A DNA stretch of 64,000 bases. It comes from Comamonadaceae bacterium (lineage in GTDB: Bacteria; Pseudomonadota; Gammaproteobacteria; Burkholderiales; Burkholderiaceae_C). Each line of letters opens with the position of its first letter. The stretch's first letter is position 1. The translations under genes and the position numbers were made by a program. Positions 4,404-46,227 of the stretch are shown here, in pieces. The stretch lies in contig JAJTEW010000009.1 of assembly GCA_021299875.1 (NCBI GenBank), positions 62,001 to 126,000 on the forward strand, given 5' to 3'. The notes beneath the pieces were generated by a model. The model saw only the letters and a program-made list of their open reading frames with translations. It made no database searches and was not told the DNA's origin.

Positions 4404-5318
4404 TCAAGGCTTGGGCTTGCGCAAACCCAACCACATCACCGTGGACACCACCACCGCCGCCCCCACCAATTGCATCGGCGCAATGGCCTGACCCAGCAAG
4501 CCCCAGGCCAGCACCAATGCAAAAATGGGCTCCACATTCATGATGGCCGAGTTGCCCACCACGCCCAGCTTGGGCAGCACGGTGAACATGATGGTGAAGG
4601 CCGTGCCGTACAGGAAAGTCAACCAGGCCAAGCCCCACCAACCCGGTTCGGCCTGGGGCCACTGAAATCCACCTTGCGTGCTGGCCACCAAGGCGGCCAG
4701 AACACCGACCGTGGTCAGCGAGGTAAAGGTGCGCAAGCGCCCATCCACACCCACCGTTTCGTGCTGTGTCAACACCAAGGCCAAACCAAATGTCACCGAC
4801 GCGATCAAAGCAAAGCCTACACCCGCGCCAATTTCACCCCAATGCCGCGCAGCACCCAAGCCAGACGCCGCGCCCAGCACATCCAATGCCAAGGCCAATC
4901 CGAACATCATCACCGGCATGGCCCACAAAAGGGCGCGCTCGGGCTTGTGGCCGTACAAAATACGGGCCCACAAGGCGGTGGTCAGTGGGTAGGTGTTGAA
5001 CGCCAGCAAAGCCAGCGCCACCGGCAAACGCGCCACTGCCGAATACAGGCACACGCTTTGCACCGCGATCAGCACCCCGACGGTCGCCAGGTATTTGCGC
5101 TGTGGCGGCAGCACGCTGAAGGCCACCTTTTGGTGCCACAAGATCAAGGCAACAACGATGGCGGTGAGGACACTGCGCACCGTGACCGCCGTCACCACAT
5201 CCAAGCCATGGTTGAACGCGGTTCGGGCCGCCACGTGGTTGGCGCCCATCATGAAGGCGGTCAACAACAAGGTGGCAAAAGCGGCCCCTGTCAAGCGGGA
5301 TGAGGCTGGGTTGCTCAT
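4404..5318 (-). CDS. EamA/DMT-family transporter
   Basis: multi-TM protein 'FMMGANHVAARTAFNHGLDVVTAVTVRSVLTAIVVALI'. Confidence 0.88.
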   Translation of the reverse strand: MSNPASSRLTGAAFATLLLTAFMMGANHVAARTAFNHGLDVVTAVTVRSVLTAIVVALILWHQKVAFSVLPPQRKYLATVGVLIAVQSVCLYSAVARLPVALALLAFNTYPLTTALWARILYGHKPERALLWAMPVMMFGLALALDVLGAASGLGAARHWGEIGAGVGFALIASVTFGLALVLTQHETVGVDGRLRTFTSLTTVGVLAALVASTQGGFQWPQAEPGWWGLAWLTFLYGTAFTIMFTVLPKLGVVGNSAIMNVEPIFALVLAWGLLGQAIAPMQLVGAAVVVSTVMWLGLRKPKP

Positions 5319-5351
5319 GCGTTCAAGGCCTTGGAGGTCGGTCGGACGTGG

Positions 5352-6335
5352 TCATGGTTGAGGATAAAGCCCCAAGCCCCGCGCATGCAGGCGACTCAAA
5401 CCCAGCAAGGCGTCGGTGAAGGGTGTGGCCACACCGGTCAAGCCGCCCAGCTCGCGCACGGACGAGACCAAGGCATCGAGCTCAACCGGCTTGCCTGCGT
5501 CCACGTCTTGCAGCATCGACGTGCGGAAGGCCCCGAGCTTGCGCGTGACGGCGTGGCGGTCTTCGGGGGTTTGCGCGATCGGGATGCCCATGCGCTCGCC
5601 GATCGCCTTGGCTTCGAGCATGACGCTGGAGACAAAGCCGCACACCAGCGGATCGTCCAGAATCACATCAGTGGTGGCCCCGGTGAAGGCACTGATGGGG
5701 TTGATGGTCATGTTGCCCCACAGCTTGTACCAAACGTCTTTCTGGATTTGCGGTGACGCCGTGGCGTTGAACCCCGCTTGCTCCAAAAGCGCCACCAGCT
5801 CGCGCAGGCGCGGAGTGTCGGCCCCACTGGGTTCGCCCAAGATCAAGCCGTTGCCAAAGTGGTGACGAATCACGCCGGGCATGTCGACCGAGCAGCTCGC
5901 GTGCACCACACCGCCGATCACGCGGTCTGCCGGGATGTGCCGTGCAATCACGCCCGACGGGTCCACCGATTGCAAAGTGGTGCCCGAAAGCGACCCGCCA
6001 AAGCCTTGCAAAAACCACCAGGGCACGCCGTTCATGGCCGTCAGCACCACCGTCTGCGGCCCCAGCAGCGGCGCGATGTGACGTGCCACATCGGCCATGG
6101 CTGGGGCTTTCACGGCCACGATCACCAAATCTTGCGCACCCAACTCGGCCGCATCGGCGCGGGCTTTCAAAGAAACCACCATCTCCTGATCACCTTGGCG
6201 CAACACCAAGCCCACTTGCTGCAAAGCCTCTAAGGTGGCCCCGCGTGCCACCGCGCTGAGCGTGTTGCCTTGGCGCGCCAAATGCACGCCCATCCAACCG
6301 CCAATGGCGCCTGCACCGTAAATACAGACTTTCAT
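5352..6335 (-). CDS. 2-dehydropantoate 2-reductase-like (ApbA/PanE family)
   Basis: 'MKVCIYGAGAIGGWMGVHLARQGN' and C-terminal 'SSVMLEAKAIGERMG ... TSMLQDVDAGKPVELDAL'. Confidence 0.88.
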   Translation of the reverse strand: MKVCIYGAGAIGGWMGVHLARQGNTLSAVARGATLEALQQVGLVLRQGDQEMVVSLKARADAAELGAQDLVIVAVKAPAMADVARHIAPLLGPQTVVLTAMNGVPWWFLQGFGGSLSGTTLQSVDPSGVIARHIPADRVIGGVVHASCSVDMPGVIRHHFGNGLILGEPSGADTPRLRELVALLEQAGFNATASPQIQKDVWYKLWGNMTINPISAFTGATTDVILDDPLVCGFVSSVMLEAKAIGERMGIPIAQTPEDRHAVTRKLGAFRTSMLQDVDAGKPVELDALVSSVRELGGLTGVATPFTDALLGLSRLHARGLGLYPQP

Positions 6336-7120
6336 GCGCGCCACCCTTTGTCTTGCCGGTCGACTTGGCGCACCAGCGATTGGAAAACGTCTTGGCCCGC
6401 GCCATGGTTCGGGTTGAACTGCAGGGCGTCGCGGGTGCATTGGTCGGCAACGGCCTCGGACACGGCAATGGGCTGGCCCATGCTGAAAGTGGCCAGCTGG
6501 ATTTCGCAGGCGCGCTGCAAAGTCCAGAGCACCGCAAAGGTTTGGGGCAAGGTGTGGCCCCAGGCCAAAAGGCCGTGGTTGCGCAAGATGACGGCTTGTT
6601 TGTGGCCGATGCTGCGCAGCAGGCGTGGCGCTTCGTCGGCGTGGATGGTGATGCCCTCAAAGTCATGGTAAGCCACCATGTTGTGCAACTGGGCGCTGTA
6701 AAAATTGGTCTGCTGCAAACCGCCTTGCACACAAGCCACGGCCACGCCCGCCGTGGTGTGGGTGTGCATCACACAATGCGCCGCGGCCAAGCCTTCGTGC
6801 ACGGCAGCATGCACCGTGAATCCTGCCGGGTTGACGGGGTAAGGCGAGCCATCCTGCACCCGGCCTTGCACGTCGATCTTGACCAGGTTGCTGGCCGTGA
6901 CCTCGCTGTAGTGCAGGCCAAAGGGGTTGATCAAAAAGTGTTTATCGCCCCCGGTGACGCTGTCGGGCAATCGCAGCGTGATGTGGTTGTAAATCATCTC
7001 GGTCCAGCCGAGCAGGGCAAACACGCGGTAACTGGCCGCCAGCTGCAATCGCGCTTGCCATTCATCGGGGTGCACCCGCGCTTGCAGCGATGGCACGACC
7101 GGTTGGGGGGTAGGGAACAT
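6332..7120 (-). CDS. class II aldolase/adducin-family protein
   Basis: 'GWTEMIYNHITLRLPD', 'AAHCVMHTHTTAGVAVA', 'AVILRNHGLLAWG'; start at MFPTPQPV. Confidence 0.9.
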   Translation of the reverse strand: MFPTPQPVVPSLQARVHPDEWQARLQLAASYRVFALLGWTEMIYNHITLRLPDSVTGGDKHFLINPFGLHYSEVTASNLVKIDVQGRVQDGSPYPVNPAGFTVHAAVHEGLAAAHCVMHTHTTAGVAVACVQGGLQQTNFYSAQLHNMVAYHDFEGITIHADEAPRLLRSIGHKQAVILRNHGLLAWGHTLPQTFAVLWTLQRACEIQLATFSMGQPIAVSEAVADQCTRDALQFNPNHGAGQDVFQSLVRQVDRQDKGWRA

Positions 7121-7168
7121 CGACGTCTCCTTGATCAATGAATTAGGGACATGAATTGGGGTTGCATG

Positions 7169-7189
7169 AATTGGGGTCAGACCCCAATT
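7169..7189. repeat. perfect 10-bp inverted repeat AATTGGGGTC-A-GACCCCAATT
   Basis: read directly; overlaps the stop codon region of hpaI; a further direct copy of ATGAATTGGGGT lies just upstream (7151-7162). Confidence 0.85.
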
Positions 7190-8003
7190 AGTAAGTCGCA
7201 CCTTTGGCGGGTGCGGCAACGGGGGCGGCTGATTTGAAATGCGCCGCCAGATCGGTGGTGTGGCGCATCAAGAGTTGGGTGTCCAGGCCCACAGCGACAA
7301 ACAAAGCGCCCAGCGACAAATAATGCGCGGCCTGTTGGCGGTCGGGCGTGAGGATGCCGGGGGCTTTGCCTGCCTTCAGGATGCGGGCGATGGCGTCCTC
7401 AATGGCCGCTTGCACTTCGGGGTGCGCGGCATTGCCCACATGGCCCATGCTGGCCGACAAATCGGCCGGGCCAATGAAGACACCGTCCACACCGGGCGTG
7501 GCGGCAATCGCATCCAGGTTCTTCAGCGCTTGCCGTGACTCGACCTGAACCAGCAGGCAGACCTCTTGGTTGGCCCGCTTGAAGTAATCCGAGAAATGCC
7601 CCCAGCGCGAAGCCCGCGCCCCGGCCATGCCCCGCACGCCGCCCAGACCATCGTCTTGCGGGTAGCGCATGGCCTGCACCAATTGCGCGGCTTGCTCGGC
7701 CGTATCGACCATGGGCACCAAAATGTTTTGCGCACCCAAGTCCAGGTATTGCTTGATGAGCGCCGTCTCGCCCAGGGGCACTCGGCACACCGGGTGGCTG
7801 GCGGGGTAAGCGGCTAGGGTCTGCAACTGCGCCTGGATGCTGCGCAGGTCGTTCGGCGCGTGTTCGCCGTCGATCACCAGCCAGTCAAACCCGGCCAAGG
7901 CGCAGATTTCGGCGGTGTAGGCGCTGGCCAAACCCATCCACAGGCCGATCTGGGGCTGTTGGTTTTGCAGGGCTTGTTTGAATAAGTTCACAGGGGTGTT
8001 CAT
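7188..8003 (-). CDS. hpaI: 4-hydroxy-2-oxo-heptane-1,7-dioate aldolase (HpcH/HpaI family)
   Basis: '[52 protein letters not shown]'; position in hpa cluster. Confidence 0.93.
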
Positions 8004-8046
8004 GGTGAAGTTCCTCTCGTTAAAGGCCAAACGGCTTATAGGATGT

Positions 8047-8120
8047 TGGGGCCGGGGTGGCGGCTCGGGCGATGTGGCAAAGCGAAGCGCCTCTGAGCTC
8101 GGGCCGCCACCCCGGCCCCA
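8047..8120. repeat. long GC-rich inverted repeat (18-bp perfect arms)
   Basis: TGGGGCCGGGGTGGCGGC (8047-8064) and GCCGCCACCCCGGCCCCA (8103-8120) in the hpaI/hpaH gap. Confidence 0.9.
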
Positions 8121-8170
8121 GCAGCCTCCCGCTATCGCAAGACGAAGCCGCTGCAGACGCATCCAAACGC

Positions 8171-8992
8171 TCAAACAAACCGAAACTCCAGCTTGCCCAG
8201 CGGCCCGTAGTCCGCCTCAAACACATCGCCCACTTTGGCCAGCGCCGGTTTGGTGAACGAACCAGCCAACACGATCTCTCCGGCTTGCAGGTGTTCACCC
8301 CAAGGTGCCAGCTTGTTGGCCAACCAAGCGATGCCAACGGCCGGGTGACCTTGCACGCCCGCTGCCAAACCGGTTTCTTCGACCACACCGTTTTGCCTCA
8401 GCACAGCCCCGCACCAAGGTAAGTCGGTGGTCAGCGGATCGACCCGCTTGGCACCGAGCACGATGCCCGCATTGGCCGCGTTGTCGCTGATGGTGTCGTA
8501 GACCTTGCGCATCACCTTGGTGTGGCGATCGAACTGCTCGATGCGCGAGTCGATGATCTCAATCGCCGGCGTCACATACTCAGTCGCCTCCAAGACTTGC
8601 TGGACCGTCACGTTGGGGCCACGCAGTTCTTTCTTGAGGATGAAGGCCAACTCGACCTCGACACGCGGGGCGATGAAATCGGTGAACGGGATGTCCAGCA
8701 CCTGACCGGGGGTGCAGGTGTAGCGCATGTCGTCCAGCAGCGTGCCGTAGTCGGGCTCGTCGATCTGGCTTGAGACCTGCATGGCGCGGCTGGTGAGGCC
8801 AATCTTGTGTCCGATCATTTGTCGCCCTTCGGCAAACCTGAGTTGCATCCAGGCGCGGTTGATGCGGTAACCGTCTTCGATGCTCATACCCGGGAATCGC
8901 TTGGAAAAGTGTTCGATCTGCACGCGTGATTTTTGGGACTGGTTCAACTCTTGGGCAAGCTGATGAATTTGGTCTTCGGTCAAGACGGACAT
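8171..8992 (-). CDS. hpaH: 2-oxo-hepta-3-ene-1,7-dioate hydratase
   Basis: '[29 protein letters not shown]', FAH/hydratase family; cluster context. Confidence 0.93.
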
Positions 8993-8995
8993 GGT

Positions 8996-9433
8996 TCACA
9001 CCTTGTTGAAAAGAGGATGCAGGTTGCTGTGTTTGGCGTCAAACACCTCGGGGCCGACGTCGATCTGCAGGGTGATGCCAATGTGGCGCTGCGCCATGAC
9101 CGGCGCAAAAAAAGTCTTGGCCACATCCAGCAGCGTCTGGCCAGCGCGTTGCTGCGTGGCCTCGGTGCGGCCACGGCCCATGCGCACATTCAGGTAAACA
9201 AAGGCGTAGTCACCCGTGCCACCCACTTCGCGCCCCGCTGCCCCGCCATCGGCCACCGCGTAATGCGGCGCGGGGTAAGCCAGTACACGGGTGCCGCCGG
9301 TGGGAAACACTTGCTTGGCTTCTTCGTCCTGGACGGTGAGCATGGCGTCGGCCATCTGACGGCACAAAGCGGTCATGCTGACCTCGTGGTCAAGTTGGCC
9401 GGTGTAGAGAATAACGAGATGGGGCATGGTCAC
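8996..9433 (-). CDS. hpaF: 5-carboxymethyl-2-hydroxymuconate isomerase
   Basis: 'MPHLVILYTGQLDHEVSMTALCRQMADAML'; cluster context. Confidence 0.88.
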   Translation of the reverse strand: MTMPHLVILYTGQLDHEVSMTALCRQMADAMLTVQDEEAKQVFPTGGTRVLAYPAPHYAVADGGAAGREVGGTGDYAFVYLNVRMGRGRTEATQQRAGQTLLDVAKTFFAPVMAQRHIGITLQIDVGPEVFDAKHSNLHPLFNKV

Positions 9434-10255
9434 ACCCTTGTGCTTACGGCGGTGTAGCCTTCGGCGCTGCTGGCCACGGCTGCGGGAATGTGTTCGCCCT
9501 TTTGCGGCGTCACTTCGAAAATGGCATTGAGCTGGCCCGTGCCGCTGGCGCCAAAGTACGGTGTGACCATGTCCACGCCGCCGTCATACCCCGTCCAGCC
9601 CAAAGCGCCCATCAGCATGGCGGTGTCGTGCATGAAGCCTTCGCCGTGACCTTTGCTCGCATACTCGGGCAGCATCTCGCAAAAGGCTTTCCATTCGCGG
9701 TTGCCCCACATCTGCAAAACTTGCTTGTCAAGTTGCTCCAAAAACGGGCTCCAGATCTTGTGGGCAAACTCAGGGGCCAAGCCATTTTGGGCAAAACGGT
9801 GTGAGAGCGAGCCACTGGCCAAAAACGCCACCTTGCCGTCGTAATGCTTTTCCACCGCCTCGCGCATGGCCCAGCCCAAGCGGGCACTGTCGTTGAGGTA
9901 ATGCACCATGCACAGGGCCGAGACCGAAATCACTTTGAAGTGCTGGTCTTCGTTCATGTAGCGCAGCGGCACCAGCGTGCCGTATTCGGGGTCCAAGGTG
10001 GTGCTGTCGTGCGCCAGCGTTTCCACGCCGTGTTCATTGGCCACTTGGGCCAGCAGGTGGCCCGTAATTCGCATTGACCAGCCAGTGCGTGTCGAACACC
10101 ACCAAGGTGTCCACCCCCAGAGCGCGGCAGCGCCGGCTGATTTCTTTGTGGCCATCGATGGCGCTTTGGCGCGTGCCAAAGCGCGGCCCGGGGATCTCAC
10201 TCAAGTACATGCTGGGCACGTGGGTGATTTTGGCGGCGAGTGCGAGTTGGCCCAT
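9430..10255 (-). pseudogene. hpaD: 3,4-dihydroxyphenylacetate 2,3-dioxygenase, disrupted by internal deletion with frameshift
   Basis: N-terminal part in one frame (10034..10255: MGQLALAAKITHVPSMYLSEIPGPRFGTRQSAIDGHKEISRRCRALGVDTLVVFDTHWLVNANYG) and C-terminal part in another (within 9430..10200: HLLAQVANEHGVETL...LEYGTLVP-like...). The segment normally between them is missing. Confidence 0.85.
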
Positions 10256-38221: not shown

Positions 38222-38267
38222 TGGTGCGGCTGGCGGGGATCGAACCCACGACCCTTGGCTTCGGAGG
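38222..38267. repeat. attL: 46-bp copy of tRNA-Arg 3' part
   Basis: TGGTGCGGCTGGCGGGGATCGAACCCACGACCCTTGGCTTCGGAGG, identical to 46152-46197. Confidence 0.93.
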
Positions 38268-38411
38268 ATCGGACTTCCCATTGGACTGTGGTGTCAGTCA
38301 CTCTGGATTTCCAATGGTTCTGTGGTGGAGCTGTTGGGTGTCTGAGAACGTTCTAAAACAATAAACAAGGGATTGAACAACAATGCATAGTTTCTTTCCT
38401 ACACATTAAGA

Positions 38412-38441
38412 TTGACATAGATTAGATCCCTCTAGTAAAAT
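38412..38441 (+). promoter_or_regulatory. sigma70-like promoter for element left operon
   Basis: TTGACA - 18 nt - TAAAAT, about 50 nt upstream of CDS at 38491. Confidence 0.5.
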
Positions 38442-38490
38442 ATAAATTTGAATCTAATAATAACTATCGACATACAAAAAAGGTAAATTA

Positions 38491-39273
38491 ATGATTAAAA
38501 TTAGTTATTTAATACTATTTTTTACCCTTTTGTCATTTTCTAATCTCACATTTGCCCAATTCGATAAGGTTGTTGTGAAAATGCAATCTGGAGCAGAGGT
38601 TCGATTGATTGATCTGCCATGGTTTCAATTCGCTTTAAATATAAGCAATGGGCAATGGAAAGATAGGGCAACTACTGCTGATTGGATAGTTGCTGCACCA
38701 CCACCTTTTTGCCCCTATGGAAACTTCTACAAATTAGTTTGGAAGGGTGACGTAAATGCATTTAAGAATGAAAGCGTAGATAAATGCTCTTCATTACAAA
38801 GAGAAAAACTAGCCGGTCTACCTTCTGAAATTAACAACCTGTGCAACTGCAAAATAATACTAGAAACCGTTAGTCGAGTTGAAAATAATAAAACTACTTG
38901 GCGTTCATTAGACGATGAGACTCTCAAATCCGAAGAGTTTAAATTCAGAAGAACACTTATTGGAACAAAAGGAGAACTCCCAGTTCTTTTTTCTGTTGGC
39001 AGTATAAATTCAGGCATTTATAATTTCAGTGGTGAAAAACTATGCTCTTTTAATGGTGTCACTACACAGACTAATAAAGGATCAAGCACATTGGAAAAGA
39101 TGAATTCATTTCTTAAGGTTTCTGGCAGACCCTTCCCAATTATGTGTTTTGAAAATATGCCTGGCGAAATTGATTTTAGTAATTTACATTACAATGCATT
39201 TCGTTCGAAAATTGATGGTGATTTACACTTAAATTTTAATAATGGAGAAAAATATGTCGTTAAACCTCATTAA
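38491..39273 (+). CDS. secreted protein of unknown function (element cargo)
   Basis: signal peptide 'MIKISYLILFFTLLSFSNLTFAQ'; AAAAAAGG RBS-like; AT-rich. Confidence 0.75.
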   Translation: MIKISYLILFFTLLSFSNLTFAQFDKVVVKMQSGAEVRLIDLPWFQFALNISNGQWKDRATTADWIVAAPPPFCPYGNFYKLVWKGDVNAFKNESVDKCSSLQREKLAGLPSEINNLCNCKIILETVSRVENNKTTWRSLDDETLKSEEFKFRRTLIGTKGELPVLFSVGSINSGIYNFSGEKLCSFNGVTTQTNKGSSTLEKMNSFLKVSGRPFPIMCFENMPGEIDFSNLHYNAFRSKIDGDLHLNFNNGEKYVVKPH

Positions 39274-40093
39274 AGTATTTTTTCTTTTTCCACTTTTAGT
39301 TTTTTCTTCTTTACAAGCTCAAGCTCAAACAAATTTTTTTGAATGTGCTACAAATCCATCAAAATGTAGGAATGCAAATAGTCAATTGCCGCCTATGCCC
39401 GCGCCAGTGCCAGCCACTCCAAACCAGCCAGCAAGAAATGCTGCAATAGGTAATGTTCAGCCGACAGTACCCTCAGTTCAGGGACAAAATAATCAAGCTA
39501 CCAAACTAACTACAAATCCAATAGACACGCAGAAAAAAACCAGTGGAAATGAGGTTTGGGTTTCATTTAACCCCTCTATTACGATTCAGGAAAGACAATT
39601 TTGCAGAATCATTGAAAATTTTCGAACTGAAAACGAAATTGCCCAACAATCTAAAAATCAAATTAAAGTTAATGAAACCTTTAGGAATCTAAGTCAATCA
39701 TTAAATTCTCTTTTGCCCGATGGTAAATTTCAAGGTTGGATAATGCGTACTGTTTTTGTATCGCAAGCAATTGATGGCTCCGCAGAAGTTTTAATGGAAC
39801 TACCTTGTAATGTATATGTCGGATCAAATGCTTGTGACGCTAACCCTCAAAATTTTTACGGTACGGCGCCTGAAGGCTCTAGAATTTATACAGAACTTGC
39901 TAAAATGACCGTTGGTGATTTTGCTCTAACCAGTGGTCAATTCGTTTATGTTGACAACAAGGCTTACGATAAAAATCGCAGTGTTGCTTCTTTTAGATTT
40001 CTAAAAACTGCATCGCATTGTAAAGCCAAAGAGATGCCTGCCGATTCTGACTTTTTCGGCATCAACTTGGAAGTTATATCAACAATTAAATAA
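39254..40093 (+). CDS. secreted protein of unknown function (element cargo)
   Basis: signal peptide 'MSLNLIKVFFLFPLLVFSSLQAQAQ'; Pro/Asn/Gln-rich linker then folded region; overlaps 3' end of previous CDS. Confidence 0.75.
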   Translation: MSLNLIKVFFLFPLLVFSSLQAQAQTNFFECATNPSKCRNANSQLPPMPAPVPATPNQPARNAAIGNVQPTVPSVQGQNNQATKLTTNPIDTQKKTSGNEVWVSFNPSITIQERQFCRIIENFRTENEIAQQSKNQIKVNETFRNLSQSLNSLLPDGKFQGWIMRTVFVSQAIDGSAEVLMELPCNVYVGSNACDANPQNFYGTAPEGSRIYTELAKMTVGDFALTSGQFVYVDNKAYDKNRSVASFRFLKTASHCKAKEMPADSDFFGINLEVISTIK

Positions 40094-40503
40094 ATACTAA
40101 AAAGAACATTCTCAAAAGGTTACTTTCCATTTCAGCCAAAACATGGGTAAAACCACGCACATAGGACTTCGGTAAATTGGTTTACCATGAAGTTAACCCA
40201 CTTCTAAACCCAGATCTATGGCTTATAAAGCCAAGGACCCTTGCCCTGAGAGCCCCGTGAATAGTGTCTTCCAAAGGATCCTATATTGGGTCTGGTAGAG
40301 ATTTCGGGTCATGCCAACCGTAAATTTAATTGACGGTATTTCAATATAGGGTGTACTTTAAAGCAATAAGGATTATATGATCCTTCTAACTCTTCTTATT
40401 GTTAAAAGTATCAACTATTTTTTTATAGAACCATCAGCATTAATAGGTCTTCGATTCAAACGGTTTTGTTTTATTACAATCTTTAATTTCAAAAAGGGGT
40501 TAT

Positions 40504-40755
40504 ATGAAAACTAACAAGGTGGAACGCATATTTTTATCAGGTGGTTTAATAGGCATGTTGTTTACGAACCCAAGAAAAGCGCTAGATGAGCTAATGATTG
40601 AAGCAAATGCAGACGGTTGGAGCGCCGTTCAAATTCTTAAACACAGCAACACAAATTTATTGATAACTATTATCCAAATTTTGGTTCTATTACTGACACT
40701 TGGCTTATGGACGTGGGGTGCTGGTTATCTTGTTCTTTTAGAAAAAGATGATTAA
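40504..40755 (+). CDS. small membrane protein (element)
   Basis: 83 aa, 'NLLITIIQILVLLLTLGLWTWGAGYLVLL' TM; AAGGGG RBS-like upstream. Confidence 0.65.
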   Translation: MKTNKVERIFLSGGLIGMLFTNPRKALDELMIEANADGWSAVQILKHSNTNLLITIIQILVLLLTLGLWTWGAGYLVLLEKDD

Positions 40756-40998
40756 TTGACGTTTGTTGAATCTGGGAATCGACCCAAAGACCTTTTTGAT
40801 CATCCATCCGGTCAATCTTAATTACATTACTTGATTATTTAGTATTTATTTATTATTATTTATTTATTTTTTTTTAAGGTTATTTCAAATTCTGGTTCCA
40901 GACCTCTTACAAACAGATCTTGAGGTTTTCTACTGTGACCCTCTGTAACACCTGCCTAAGACCGTTTTACACAGAATTCCAGAGTGTTCCAGAGACTC

Positions 40999-41027
40999 CA
41001 AACGGGGTTGTTTCACAACCCCGTTTG
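40999..41027. repeat. 13-bp perfect hairpin CAAACGGGGTTGT-TTC-ACAACCCCGTTTG
   Basis: read directly. Confidence 0.9.
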
Positions 41028-41125
41028 ACTACGTCCTTTTGGATTTATTCCACATTGTGAAATCATGGGTTTATGGGGTTTCCCCCCATCACCCGACCAA
41101 AACATCCTTCCATACTCTAAATACC

Positions 41126-41234
41126 TACAGTAAATCTTTAACCTCTACTCCCATATACAACTTTTACTGTATTTTTTATCAGAAATACTCCAGTAAATCA
41201 CTCATATGGGAGTAAGAGGTTAACATTTACTGCT
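41126..41234. promoter_or_regulatory. two inverted ~46-bp modules with CAGTAAA boxes upstream of polB (candidate origin/operator)
   Basis: CAGTAAA 41128-41134 and 41191-41197, TTTACTG 41163-41169 and 41226-41232; inner arms AACCTCTACTCCCATAT / ATATGGGAGTAAGAGGTT. Confidence 0.75.
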
Positions 41235-41246
41235 GTAAAACTTGGA

Positions 41247-43922
41247 TTGAAAGTTGGTATGAAGAAAAACTTTTGGATTGGTCCTCCAGAACACAAGAAC
41301 CCCTCTGATCACGTGGAACTTTGGTTGGAGGATGGTGATATTGACCTGAACAAACCTAAAAGGTCCAAAAAGGGTGAGACCAAAAAGGAAGACCAATATT
41401 TGTTGGTTGGTTTTGATACGGAGTTCAAGACCCCAGACAAACCAGTGACCAATGATGAGATCTACGCAGGGATGGCTCGATCATTGATCCTGTCTTATCA
41501 GTTCTACGCAAAGACTCCTGATGGATTTGTTTGGCAAGGACTCTGTTGTCCTGATGGGAACGAGAGGATTACTCTAAGTGAATTCATGATGTTTGTAATT
41601 TCATGTGGCTCAAGGATTCATGGACTGAAATCGATTCCTTCAAAGATTTATTTGGTTGGTCACTTCACACGGGCAGACGTCCCAGCGTTTAAAGATTTTT
41701 CAGACATCAATAGACAGTTCTCGGCAGTTCGAAACACATTTGTTTCGATTGACAACTACACGAAGGTAGTTGTCAACACAATGGATGACGATGGGATTGA
41801 TTTGAAGGTTTATATCCGTGACACGATGTTGTTAACCCCTCAGTCCTCAAGGAGTCTTAAGAAGATTGGTGAACTGGTTGGTGTGGATAAGGTTGAACTT
41901 TCCCCAGACAGATCAACGTATAGACAAATGATAAAGAACATGGACCGTGTTCGGATAGATCAATGGGAACTGTTCAAAAGGTACGCTCTAACTGACGCAG
42001 AAATATGTGTTCGTTACATTGAAGAAGTGATGAGGGAGTACAAGTCAGTTACTGGCAAATCCAAGGTCCCAATTACTTTGACTGGTATTGGTATGGATTT
42101 GTTGGAATTAAAATGGACTGACAGTGGTTACAACAGATTGGATGTTCTGGGTAAGGAGTTGGTTGAGGATAAAAATTACATCAAGTCTAAGGGGTACTAC
42201 GTAAAGAAAAATGTTGAGATTGATAGACCACTTGTAAGGTACAACGAACTGTTTGCAATTGATTGTTATCACGGTGGAAGGAATGAACAGTATTGGTTTG
42301 GTCCTTGTTTCGAAGACTCATGGTCTGACTTTGATTTGTCATCGGCTTATCCCACGGCTATGTCCTTGATTGGCATGCCCAATTGGGAAGAAATTTATAA
42401 AACCGATGATGTTGAACTATTCACTCCTGAAACCCTTGGATTTGCAACAGTTGATTTCGAATTCCCATCTCACATCCGATTTCCAACACTTCCAGTTCGA
42501 ACGGCAAATGGACTTGTGTTTCCATTGAAAGGAAGAAGTGACTGTTGTTCTCCTGAAATTTATTTGGCTCATAAGTTAGGAGCGAAGTTAACAATCAAGT
42601 ACGGGGTCATTGTTAAGACAGACTTAAAGAAACGTGTCTTTGAGGAATTCATTATTCAATGTAATTCCAAAAGGGTCGAGGCTGGTAAGAAAACCTTACG
42701 TGGATTGTTCTGGAAAGAGATCAGTAACTCAACGTATGGAAAGACGGCACAGGGATTAAAGGATCGAAGGGTCTATGACTTAAGAGATCGAGAAACCAAG
42801 TCACTCCCACTCAGTCGAGTAACGAACGCTTACTACGCTGCATATATCACGTCATTTGTAAGGGGTGTATTGGGTGAAATTATGAATTCGATTCCCAAGG
42901 ACAAAATAGTCTTCAGTTGTACGACAGATGGGTTCCTTTCAAACATGACGGATAAAGAGGCAACCAAGACAACATCAGGAGTGTTGTGTGGTTTGTATAA
43001 ACGTCAAAGGAAACTTCTGGCTAATGACGATGAAATCTTAGAGAAGAAACACCAGATACGAAACCCACTTGGATGGAGAACCCGAGGTCAAGCAACACTA
43101 ATCCCAGGTGAAGATAAAGGTAAGGGTGACAGCTCGCACATCCTGTTGGCAAAGGGAGGACTTTGGATAAGACCAGAGTTTGAAGAAACTCAAGAACAGA
43201 ACGATGAAATCCTGAGACACTTCTTTGAAAGAACTCCTGATACGGCAATAGATATTGAAGGTAAAACAGGTTTAAGGGACGTGGTTGAAAGAGGGGCTGA
43301 CTTTGTTGAAAAGATTGTTACGAAACGACTCAACATGGAATTTGACTGGAAGAGAAGACCTCTTGGTGTGACTTACTCAAACACTTATGACCATGTGGCA
43401 TTCAGTACTGAACCATGGAACACTGTTGAACAATTTAACTTGATGCGTGAGAAGTTTGATGACTACCAAAGAAACAGTCCAAGGTGTATTAAGACTGTGG
43501 AGGATTTCCAAAACTTGTCCACATACATTGAAACTATTACAGCGGCATCTTCAAGTAATTTGAGTTACATCCGTAAACAAGATGGTGACATCAAACGATT
43601 ACGTCAAATGTTGTGTGCGGCTTTCAAACAACGTAAGGCTGGATTTAAATTTGTTTCAATGACGAACCAAGACTTTGCAACTTGTTTAACTCAGTCTGGA
43701 ATTAAATGTACGAAGGCTGATGTAGAAAATGGATTGAAGAAGGACTTCATTCCCCATCAAGTTCCACCTACTGACAGGGTCAAACGTGTTTTGGCTGATT
43801 TTGTAAACAACGTATTTCCTAAACTTCAAGTCGATCAGTTATTTGTAAAAGTTGACAAGGAAGGTCTTGTGATTAGATTGTCCAACGATCAGGAGTGTGA
43901 GTTCATTTCCAAGGTTGTTTGA
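41247..43922 (+). CDS. family-B DNA polymerase, candidate primer-independent piPolB (TTG start in ORF track; ATG alternative at 41259)
   Basis: ExoI 'GFDTEF', ExoIII-like 'YALTDAE', motif A 'DLSSAYP', motif B 'KEISNSTYG', motif C 'TTDG', YxGG-like 'YHGGR'. Confidence 0.9.
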   Translation: MKVGMKKNFWIGPPEHKNPSDHVELWLEDGDIDLNKPKRSKKGETKKEDQYLLVGFDTEFKTPDKPVTNDEIYAGMARSLILSYQFYAKTPDGFVWQGLCCPDGNERITLSEFMMFVISCGSRIHGLKSIPSKIYLVGHFTRADVPAFKDFSDINRQFSAVRNTFVSIDNYTKVVVNTMDDDGIDLKVYIRDTMLLTPQSSRSLKKIGELVGVDKVELSPDRSTYRQMIKNMDRVRIDQWELFKRYALTDAEICVRYIEEVMREYKSVTGKSKVPITLTGIGMDLLELKWTDSGYNRLDVLGKELVEDKNYIKSKGYYVKKNVEIDRPLVRYNELFAIDCYHGGRNEQYWFGPCFEDSWSDFDLSSAYPTAMSLIGMPNWEEIYKTDDVELFTPETLGFATVDFEFPSHIRFPTLPVRTANGLVFPLKGRSDCCSPEIYLAHKLGAKLTIKYGVIVKTDLKKRVFEEFIIQCNSKRVEAGKKTLRGLFWKEISNSTYGKTAQGLKDRRVYDLRDRETKSLPLSRVTNAYYAAYITSFVRGVLGEIMNSIPKDKIVFSCTTDGFLSNMTDKEATKTTSGVLCGLYKRQRKLLANDDEILEKKHQIRNPLGWRTRGQATLIPGEDKGKGDSSHILLAKGGLWIRPEFEETQEQNDEILRHFFERTPDTAIDIEGKTGLRDVVERGADFVEKIVTKRLNMEFDWKRRPLGVTYSNTYDHVAFSTEPWNTVEQFNLMREKFDDYQRNSPRCIKTVEDFQNLSTYIETITAASSSNLSYIRKQDGDIKRLRQMLCAAFKQRKAGFKFVSMTNQDFATCLTQSGIKCTKADVENGLKKDFIPHQVPPTDRVKRVLADFVNNVFPKLQVDQLFVKVDKEGLVIRLSNDQECEFISKVV

Positions 43923-43954
43923 CTTGGATATATAGATCAGGAGGATGAATTTCC

Positions 43955-44119
43955 ATGCTTACAGACCCAAAGAACAAAGCTGAATTGATTGACTGTTTAC
44001 GTCAAGCGAAGGACTTCAAAGTACTCAAGGTGATCAGAGGCAAGGCATCTGACATGTCTAAATCCATCTCCGTATTGGGTGGAAAGACAGTGGCTGTCAT
44101 TGTGATTGAGAGTCGTTGA
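43955..44119 (+). CDS. 54-aa protein of unknown function (element)
   Basis: read directly: MLTDPKNKAELIDCLRQAKDFKVLKVIRGKASDMSKSISVLGGKTVAVIVIESR*; strong RBS CAGGAGG 43938-43944; not in ORF list. Confidence 0.65.
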   Translation: MLTDPKNKAELIDCLRQAKDFKVLKVIRGKASDMSKSISVLGGKTVAVIVIESR

Positions 44120-45215
44120 GTGCAGAGATGTTCAGTTTGTTGATCACGTTCATAGCCCTTTGAGTGATCTTGGACTGTTCGATGTGGGCATACCGCATCG
44201 TGGTCTTGATGTCTGAGTGTCCAAGGATTTCTTTGACCTCATAGAGGTTCATTCCGTTTTGAATCAACCGAGTGGCATGAGTGTGACGCAATGTGTGGGC
44301 TGAACACCCTTCGATTCCGGCTCGATCAAACGTCTTTTTGAAGATCTTGGTAAGGCTACCCCTCGCAAGCCCCTTCTTGTTCGTAAAGATGAACTGGTTG
44401 ATTTTTGTTTCACACCTTCTGGTCAGTACTTCATGTACTCTGTCTGTCATGTACAGAACTGATTCATTGTTGACCTTGGACCTCCACAACTGAATGGTCC
44501 TTTGTTCTAGGTCGATTTTGGACCACTCAAGCGAACAGATCTCCCCGTGTCTGGCTCCTGTGTCCAGAAGAAGGATTAACAGGTCATAGAAGTCTTGCAT
44601 CTGATTCCTGATGTCGACCCTTCTTGTGTCATACGGAGCTACGTATTTGATTTCACGGATCGGATCAGCTGCTCTAAGTAGTCTTTGCTCCTCCTCAGTC
44701 GACAGGTACCTCAGGCGCCCCTTAGGTAACTTGATCGATGGCATTTCTACTTCAGACACTTGGTACCCAAGCTTCCGCATGTACTTGATCATCCCTCCCA
44801 CCTGATTCATCACATGTTTGATGGTCTGGTTGGAGTAGTTGTTTGACTGCAGAAGTTGGCGGAACCTGTCGATTTCAATGGTCGTGATCTGATGGACGTA
44901 TAGAACGTGTTTAAAGTGGTTGGAAGCCTTTTCACACCAGTGGACTGTGTACTTGATACTCTTGATGTGGGACTTGGACTTGATGAATAACTGGAACCCC
45001 TTGGTGATTTCTATGGGGGACTTAAGACCCAACTGGCTTTGTTCAATCAGTTGTTTGCGCCACTGGGCTTCAATGTTTAGAGCAAGTTGCTTGTCAGTGG
45101 TCTTGGAGGACTTGATATAGGTCTTTCCGTTGTACTGGAACTGGATGTAGAAGTACTTGGAACCATTGCGTTTGGAGACAGACATTTGGAGGGGTTTGGG
45201 TTGTTTAAACTCCAC
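44097..45215 (-). CDS. int: tyrosine recombinase/integrase
   Basis: 'LLLDTGARHGEICSLEWSKID', 'SAHTLRHTHATRLIQNGMNLYEVKEILGHSDIKTTMRYAHIEQ'. Confidence 0.96.
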   Translation of the reverse strand: MEFKQPKPLQMSVSKRNGSKYFYIQFQYNGKTYIKSSKTTDKQLALNIEAQWRKQLIEQSQLGLKSPIEITKGFQLFIKSKSHIKSIKYTVHWCEKASNHFKHVLYVHQITTIEIDRFRQLLQSNNYSNQTIKHVMNQVGGMIKYMRKLGYQVSEVEMPSIKLPKGRLRYLSTEEEQRLLRAADPIREIKYVAPYDTRRVDIRNQMQDFYDLLILLLDTGARHGEICSLEWSKIDLEQRTIQLWRSKVNNESVLYMTDRVHEVLTRRCETKINQFIFTNKKGLARGSLTKIFKKTFDRAGIEGCSAHTLRHTHATRLIQNGMNLYEVKEILGHSDIKTTMRYAHIEQSKITQRAMNVINKLNISALNDSQSQ

Positions 45216-45258
45216 GATCCCCTAGATTTCAGGGGTAGACAACGATTGATTCCAAGTC

Positions 45259-45285
45259 CCAACCGTCAATTTGATTGACGGTTGG
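45259..45285. repeat. 12-bp perfect hairpin CCAACCGTCAAT-TTG-ATTGACGGTTGG
   Basis: read directly. Confidence 0.9.
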
Positions 45286-45306
45286 AGTGGGTGGAAACAC
45301 CCACTC
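45285..45306. repeat. 9-bp hairpin GAGTGGGTG-GAAA-CACCCACTC
   Basis: read directly. Confidence 0.88.
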
Positions 45307-45322
45307 AGTCCAGAAGTATTGT

Positions 45323-45381
45323 TTGGGATAACGAACCGGATTTTTCTGTATTCTTTAAAGAAACCCAACCCGTTATCCCAA
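45323..45381. repeat. 11-bp inverted repeat TTGGGATAACG...CGTTATCCCAA
   Basis: read directly, 37-nt spacer. Confidence 0.85.
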
Positions 45382-45396
45382 CTGATTGATCAGGGT

Positions 45397-45663
45397 TCAA
45401 ACCACCACTTTTTGTCTCCTTAGTTTCCGTGTGACGTTGTAGAAGTATGTTGGACTTCCCTTTGGTGTGATGTTTGCGCCTTCAATGAACGCTTGAAGGA
45501 CCACTTCCCTTGATTCATCCTTCAGGATCTTGAAGATTTCCATTGCAGCCGCAGCTTTCGATCCTTGTTCAACTAGCACCTGTTGACCAATCCTGATGGC
45601 ATCCTTGTACAAAGATGGATTGACAGGGGATGGGATCAGTTGGGTTTCAATGTTTGTATTCAC
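45397..45663 (-). CDS. hypothetical protein (element), GTG start proposed
   Basis: 'VNTNIETQLIPSPVNPSLYKDAIRIGQQVLVEQGSKAAAAMEIFKILKDESREVVLQAFIEGANITPKGSPTYFYNVTRKLRRQKVVV'; overlaps end of upstream ORF. Confidence 0.6.
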   Translation of the reverse strand: MNTNIETQLIPSPVNPSLYKDAIRIGQQVLVEQGSKAAAAMEIFKILKDESREVVLQAFIEGANITPKGSPTYFYNVTRKLRRQKVVV

Positions 45664-45859
45664 AGTAGACGCTCCACAGAGTGTTGATGATTTCCATGGC
45701 TTGTTCAGGATGTAGTCCCTCCAAGCCAGAGATGTCCTCAAAGAGATCGAATGAGATGCCTGTGAACTGATGACGGGTCAATGTGAGTCCGTGTTGATCT
45801 CGAATGATTGATATCAACGACTGGAGTTCATCTGGGCTGAAATATTTCACTGGCGCCAC
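45647..45859 (-). CDS. hypothetical protein (element)
   Basis: 70 aa 'MAPVKYFSPDELQSLISIIRDQHGLTLTRHQFTGISFDLFEDISGLEGLHPEQAMEIINTLWSVYCEYKH'. Confidence 0.6.
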   Translation of the reverse strand: MAPVKYFSPDELQSLISIIRDQHGLTLTRHQFTGISFDLFEDISGLEGLHPEQAMEIINTLWSVYCEYKH

Positions 45860-46151
45860 CTAGATCAAATGAGGTGCTGTGAGGGTCCATTGGAATTAGG
45901 GAATGGACAACGAGGTTGTTGCCCTACTTCTGAGAGGGATGACTGACGAGTCTTTAGATCTTGGCTCTGGTCTGTTGACTTGAGACCATAAATTGTTGAG
46001 CACCCTTAAGCGGGCATCCAAAACTGGTCGAGAATGTGTCGACCCAATCCAACCCCAGTCTGGATCAACTCACTGGTTAAACTCTGCCTAAATCCAAGGC
46101 ATCCAGCAGACTTTGAAGGTCGTCAAGGTCGGTACCCTTGCCGGGTTCAAA

Positions 46152-46227
46152 TGGTGCGGCTGGCGGGGATCGAACCCACGACCCTTGGCTTCGGAGGCCA
46201 ATACTCTATCCACTGAGCTACAGCCGC
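46152..46227 (-). tRNA. tRNA-Arg(CCG)
   Basis: GCGGCTGTAGCTCAGTGGATAGAGTATTGGCCTCCGAAGCCAAGGGTCGTGGGTTCGATCCCCGCCAGCCGCACCA; cloverleaf by eye, anticodon CCG, encoded CCA. Confidence 0.95.

Follow-up and report, generated by a model that had tools for sequence, protein, structure and literature searches.

What kind of element occupies the tRNA-Arg(CCG) gene of this Comamonadaceae bacterium, and would it provide for its own replication? The window, that is, the whole 64,000-nucleotide stretch of contig JAJTEW010000009.1 that was analyzed, contains at positions 38222-46151 an insertion of 7,930 bp bounded by 46-bp direct repeats, which encodes a family B DNA polymerase (PolB). The initial annotation regarded it as a stripped-down, self-replicating element of the pipolin type. 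The pipolin label holds at the level of sequence, as the polymerase falls in the set of primer-independent PolBs (piPolB) and the element has attachment (att) repeats and a recombinase. It is very probable that the element is an integrated pipolin, combining a site-specific insertion in tRNA-Arg(CCG), a piPolB-type polymerase and a cargo cassette. Judged by its genes and ends, it is a new, small and divergent pipolin, in which the testable defining features of the integrated form were found.

Insertion at tRNA-Arg(CCG)

The features that carry this reading are the following:
38222-38267, + strand: left 46-bp direct repeat (attL-type), copy of the tRNA-Arg 3' end, identical to 46152-46197; empty site in four congeners
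41247-43922, + strand: family B DNA polymerase assigned to the piPolB type, 891 amino acids (aa) from TTG 41247 or 887 aa from ATG 41259; Pfam DNA_pol_B_2, E 9e-13
44097-45215, - strand: tyrosine recombinase (integrase); Pfam PF00589 (Phage_integrase), E 3e-32; phrog_1, E 8e-60
46152-46197, + strand: right 46-bp direct repeat (attR-type), inside the tRNA gene (repeat comparison, tRNA call)
46152-46227, - strand: intact tRNA-Arg(CCG), the integration target (ARAGORN, Rfam tRNA)

The two repeats match each other exactly, and match the 3' 46 bases of tRNA-Arg(CCG), as had been proposed; the tRNA was the sole match in the Rfam scan. The empty site was searched for with the host flanks joined across the site (1,477 bases). 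In congener G010 the joined flanks are uninterrupted over 1,476 of the 1,477 bases at 88%, and in congeners G077, G014 and G027 the site is contiguous, with most of the joined flanks matched. Hence, the insertion is real and its ends are the 46-bp repeats, which answers the check on relatives' empty sites suggested in the initial annotation. The AT-rich interior and GC-rich flanks described there are also borne out (40.6% GC inside the element versus 55.7% for the whole window), and so is the betaproteobacterial host: a partial 16S fragment has its best matches, at 92-94%, in Variovorax, Mitsuaria and Comamonas, placing the host in the Burkholderiales.

A tyrosine recombinase together with att repeats overlapping a tRNA is a feature of the integrated form of pipolins, and it was found here. 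The integrase, a member of a very broad family, has all catalytic residues (R, K, H-x-x-R, H and Y). It had been placed adjacent to the tRNA, which does not hold, as the two are separated by about 0.94 kb, which holds a pair of small overlapping genes. On this reading, the recombinase placed the element site-specifically at the 3' end of tRNA-Arg(CCG), with the displaced part of the tRNA now provided by the element itself, and would excise it as a circle. Seemingly at the same site, a further congener (G078, L048 about 5029-10231) carries a different insert of ~5 kb with its own integrase-like gene; hence the tRNA-Arg(CCG) site may be an integration hotspot used repeatedly.

The polymerase and its relatives

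A large family B polymerase had been noted initially and is confirmed at 41247-43922, although its start is ambiguous and the length then given, 891 aa, applies only if translation begins at the TTG. The frame is open and contains all exonuclease motifs (DTE, GHFTRAD and YALTD) and palm motifs, namely A (DFDLSSAYP), B (KEISNSTYG) and C (TTDG), followed by RTRG. Motif C (FSCTTDGF) lacks the first Asp, versus YCDTDS in phi29, and DTD is present in all four non-piPolB enzymes compared (phi29, PRD1-like, Cp-1 and T4). A motif C without the first Asp is a trait of piPolBs (PMC7544198).

The homologue scan covered about 85,000 species genomes and reaches close relatives only. The closest PolBs are chromosomally encoded in Sphingomonadales and show 46-49% identity over their full length; plasmid PolBs come next, with E values from about 1e-34 to 1e-23 (Fusobacterium 3e-34, Staphylococcus 3e-31), and PRD1-like phage polymerases match with 18% coverage at E 5e-4. 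In the tree, the element PolB groups with those of Sphingomonadales with support 100/100, and piPolBs split from protein-primed PolBs with 91/93 when T4 is the outgroup and 100/100 without T4, the deeper branching order being limited by long branches. Forcing the element PolB into the protein-primed group (phi29/PRD1/Cp-1) costs 13 log units and is disfavoured by the approximately unbiased (AU) test (p-AU 0.019). The clustering check proposed at the outset thus places the enzyme with the piPolB set, apart from the protein-primed viral PolBs, and by sequence it is of the primer-independent type.

These results bear on the alternative of a protein-primed element, either a linear plasmid or a tectivirus-like provirus, whose terminal protein would be hidden among the small genes. 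The Pfam family of the polymerase includes protein-primed enzymes too, and a fold search with the structure model ranks phi29 polymerase first, a match that is expected for this branch of PolBs; a sequence search of solved structures gave no genuine match. The tree and AU test, the TTDG motif and the tRNA att sites with their recombinase speak against such an element, as does the absence of terminal inverted repeats and of capsid or packaging genes; it was rejected on this basis and we consider it highly improbable. In agreement with the initial annotation, no Rep, primase, relaxase, terminal-protein or phage structural gene was recognized in scans of Pfam, PHROGs, PADLOC and NCBIfam.

Several points weigh against reading the element as an integrated pipolin. 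Terminal proteins diverge strongly and could escape family searches. The predicted polymerase structure is only moderate (pLDDT 63, pTM 0.53), with a model built from a trimmed, deeper alignment that replaced a weaker one (pTM 0.39). Primer independence would follow from kinship, and the kinship was established through a reference set made of Sphingomonadales loci and plasmids, with the characterized Escherichia coli piPolB outside the comparison. A single copy of polB is present in the assembly, so that a free circle is not seen. In piPolBs a KTRG motif follows motif C, and in the element PolB RTRG stands at that place, as in most of the Sphingomonadales enzymes; KTRG occurs in Staphylococcus, KTR in Fusobacterium, and RTR in Limosilactobacillus fermentum and Helicobacter. 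The reference plasmids are presumably those meant as the pipolins of Staphylococcus epidermidis and L. fermentum. Both species are named as pipolin hosts (PMC9710591).

Outside the host, polB had no convincing match when 60 relatives, 369 genomes of the class and 399 of the order were searched at the protein level; as these are samples searched with a heuristic first pass, the gene can safely be called rare, but not unique. A weak piPolB-like match in one genome (G669, E 3e-4) was not confirmed by tblastn and was treated as chance. The single copy and the rarity in the sampled order would suit a decayed, immobile pipolin remnant in which polB is retained solely to serve the host, for instance in damage tolerance, and the authors of ExplorePipolin, who regard the biological role of piPolB as unclear, mention a putative damage-tolerance role (PMC9710591). 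Yet the att repeats are still identical, the integrase and polymerase frames are intact with all catalytic motifs, and congeners lack the element, all of which makes a remnant unlikely compared with an integrated pipolin.

In the IMG/VR collection, no close relative of the element PolB or of the integrase was found. A broader profile retrieved from it a piPolB-like gene on contig IMGVR_UViG_3300006674_000090 (L062, 1-10584), 29% identical to the element PolB (E 1e-78), with motif C VTTDGF and TTRG. The contig also encodes terminase, portal, MuF, prohead protease and major capsid proteins; to judge from these genes, it represents a tailed phage or a prophage that has a polymerase of the piPolB type. 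This polymerase lies on the piPolB side of the tree, but the AU test does not reject the alternative grouping with protein-primed PolBs (p-AU 0.16). Among the isolated phages in the collection there is no close relative. On plasmid P1 of Pseudosulfitobacter pseudonitzschiae (L036, 7608-13152), an IS66-type insertion apparently interrupts a piPolB-like gene, the N-terminal half being matched on one side and the C-terminal half on the other; genes for an integrase and a MobC/relaxase pair lie close by.

Palindromes, small genes and cargo

To our knowledge, no replication origin of pipolins has been described. The piPolB would most likely copy the excised circle, self-starting and without terminal protein or primase, as expected from its family, and it is on this ground that we infer the element to be self-replicating. 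Palindromes and relatives of the cargo pair, which went beyond the initial annotation, are newly recognized. The remaining features, including small open reading frames (ORFs), are:
38491-39273, + strand: cargo ORF1, 260 aa, signal-peptide-like N-terminus; no match in Pfam, PHROGs, NCBIfam or PADLOC
39254-40093, + strand: cargo ORF2, predicted to be secreted, overlaps ORF1; listed from 39242, likelier start 39254 (GGAG upstream)
40317-40337: element-specific palindrome, copy 1, ACCGTAAATTTAATTGACGGT; two genome places, both in the element
40504-40755, + strand: ORF3, 83 aa, hydrophobic C-terminal segment; no family match
40999-41027: GC-rich hairpin, CAAACGGGGTTG-TTTC-ACAACCCCGTTTG; DNA fold z -5.0
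41128-41232: nested palindrome of 105 nucleotides (nt); DNA fold z -7.4, 0/200 shuffles equally stable
43955-44119, + strand: 54-aa ORF 3' of polB, with a good ribosome-binding site
45259-45376: cluster of three strong hairpins upstream of the integrase, to which palindrome copy 2 (45262-45282) belongs; DNA fold z -6.9
45397-45662, - strand: ORF7, small, likely GTG start near 45660 (88 aa), overlapping the end of ORF8; no plasmid relatives
45647-45859, - strand: ORF8, small, 70 aa; no family match

All four CAGTAAA/TTTACTG motifs present in the element fall within the 105-nt palindrome, which ends 15 nt short of the earliest possible polB start. This palindrome is the best candidate for a replication origin or a polB operator, and would act either as the start site or in the control of polB. 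No comparable palindrome or conserved hairpin was found upstream of the Sphingomonadales polB genes. The palindrome ACCGTNAATTTNATTGACGGT occurs at two places in the 3.1-Mb genome, 40317 and 45262, both in the element, where they bracket the polymerase-integrase core.

ORF7 and ORF8 lie between the integrase and the tRNA, a common position of excisionases and regulators, and are therefore a candidate excision/regulation pair that would probably control excision. As no transfer gene is present, spread would need another element or natural uptake. The size, the tRNA site and the integrase are also typical of phage satellites, which are excised and packaged by a helper phage, and secreted or membrane cargo would be possible in them. 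Nevertheless, capsid, packaging or redirecting genes of phages or satellites had no family match in Pfam and PHROGs, no capsid-size or phage-derived regulator gene was found there either, and IMG/VR holds no close relative, only one distant one. A satellite is thus quite improbable, and an integrated pipolin remains the preferred reading.

The cargo in the left part of the element is an AT-rich, acquired cassette in which two genes for secreted proteins overlap. Both ORF1 and ORF2 have signal-peptide-like N-terminal segments; neither belongs to a family in Pfam, PHROGs, NCBIfam or PADLOC, and defence families gave no convincing match. An ORF1 homologue (37-38%, E 1e-51) exists in congener G025, where (L046 8266-10051) the gene for the ORF1-like secreted protein overlaps that for a secreted caspase-like protein, as ORF1 and ORF2 do. 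At its C-terminal end the latter protein has a caspase-like Peptidase_C14 domain (E 7e-32), and it shares with ORF2 the N-terminal NFFECA-NP-KCR stretch (52% over 31 residues, E 8.5e-4); the pair is possibly a two-gene system with an exchangeable effector domain. The C-terminal domain of ORF2 recurs, at 50% identity, at the end of a 471-aa secreted repeat protein in G052, whose gene (L047 6707-8950) adjoins a tyrosine integrase. From these two relatives we take the first gene of the cargo cassette to be constant and the second to be exchangeable. No cargo relatives were found in plasmids, phages or viral contigs. The GC content falls from integrase (46%) to polB (41%) to cargo (34-37%), which fits a mosaic origin.

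Taken further, the element would come close to a minimal pipolin. Starting the replication of the 7.9-kb circle would fall to a single protein, a divergent piPolB of the RTRG type, acting at the 105-nt palindrome next to its own gene; the two element-specific palindromes would mark a replication-integration core that takes cargo; and the cargo would be an exchangeable two-gene cassette for secreted proteins, in which the C-terminal domain of the second gene product is replaceable, being caspase-like in the congener. This fuller proposal is speculative and, as a whole, doubtful. With 7.9 kb, one large replication gene and one conspicuous palindrome before polB, the element would be well suited to testing whether piPolB is sufficient by itself. 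With this element, a polymerase class of biotechnological use, in primer-free whole-genome amplification (PMC10253169), also gains a Burkholderiales lineage.

Comparison with known systems

A limited literature search found no pairing of pipolins with Betaproteobacteria. The nearest systems are the piPolB elements of Sphingomonadales (L008 at tRNA-Thr, L002 near tRNA-Gly), with PolBs 46-49% identical and the same motifs (TTDG, and RTRG in most), and with tyrosine recombinases nearby. One of them (L008, 7159-18355) spans 11.1 kb between 49-bp att repeats of the tRNA-Thr 3' end. Besides PolB, only distant integrases are common to these elements and the Burkholderiales element; they occupy other tRNA sites, carry other cargo, and part of those read have serine recombinases. 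A gene of the PF23343 family (G2P/ORF2 replication-protein-like), absent from the Burkholderiales element, is present in six of eight loci. Its product has ~165 aa and an HYH motif (L002 4653-5147, L003 12640-13152, L006 12724-13224, and L004, L005 and L009). In at least three loci the gene is directly downstream of piPolB, and the protein is possibly a second replication component of the Sphingomonadales elements.

Plasmids pSE-12228-03 (S. epidermidis), p3GD01 (S. warneri) and pLME300 (L. fermentum), and those of Fusobacterium, have piPolB-type enzymes with TTDG or VTDG and are mostly small (7.8-19 kb). They differ in being circular, in encoding a serine resolvase and/or a relaxase, and in a polymerase about 25% identical. 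Since plasmids of 7.2-8.0 kb with related PolBs exist, small size alone is unremarkable; hence "stripped-down" is apt with respect to integrated pipolins, such as the 11.1-kb Sphingomonadales element, but not with respect to these plasmids. The protein-primed phages phi29, PRD1 and Cp-1 share the family B core fold, phi29 polymerase being the best structural match, and differ in motif C (DTDS), a terminal-protein gene, linear virus genomes and a separate clade. The E. coli pipolins, likened here by description, differ in their tRNA-Leu site and in often carrying uracil-DNA glycosylase and restriction-modification genes, absent here; they have in common with the Burkholderiales element a PolB, tyrosine recombinases and att repeats overlapping a tRNA (PMC7385651).

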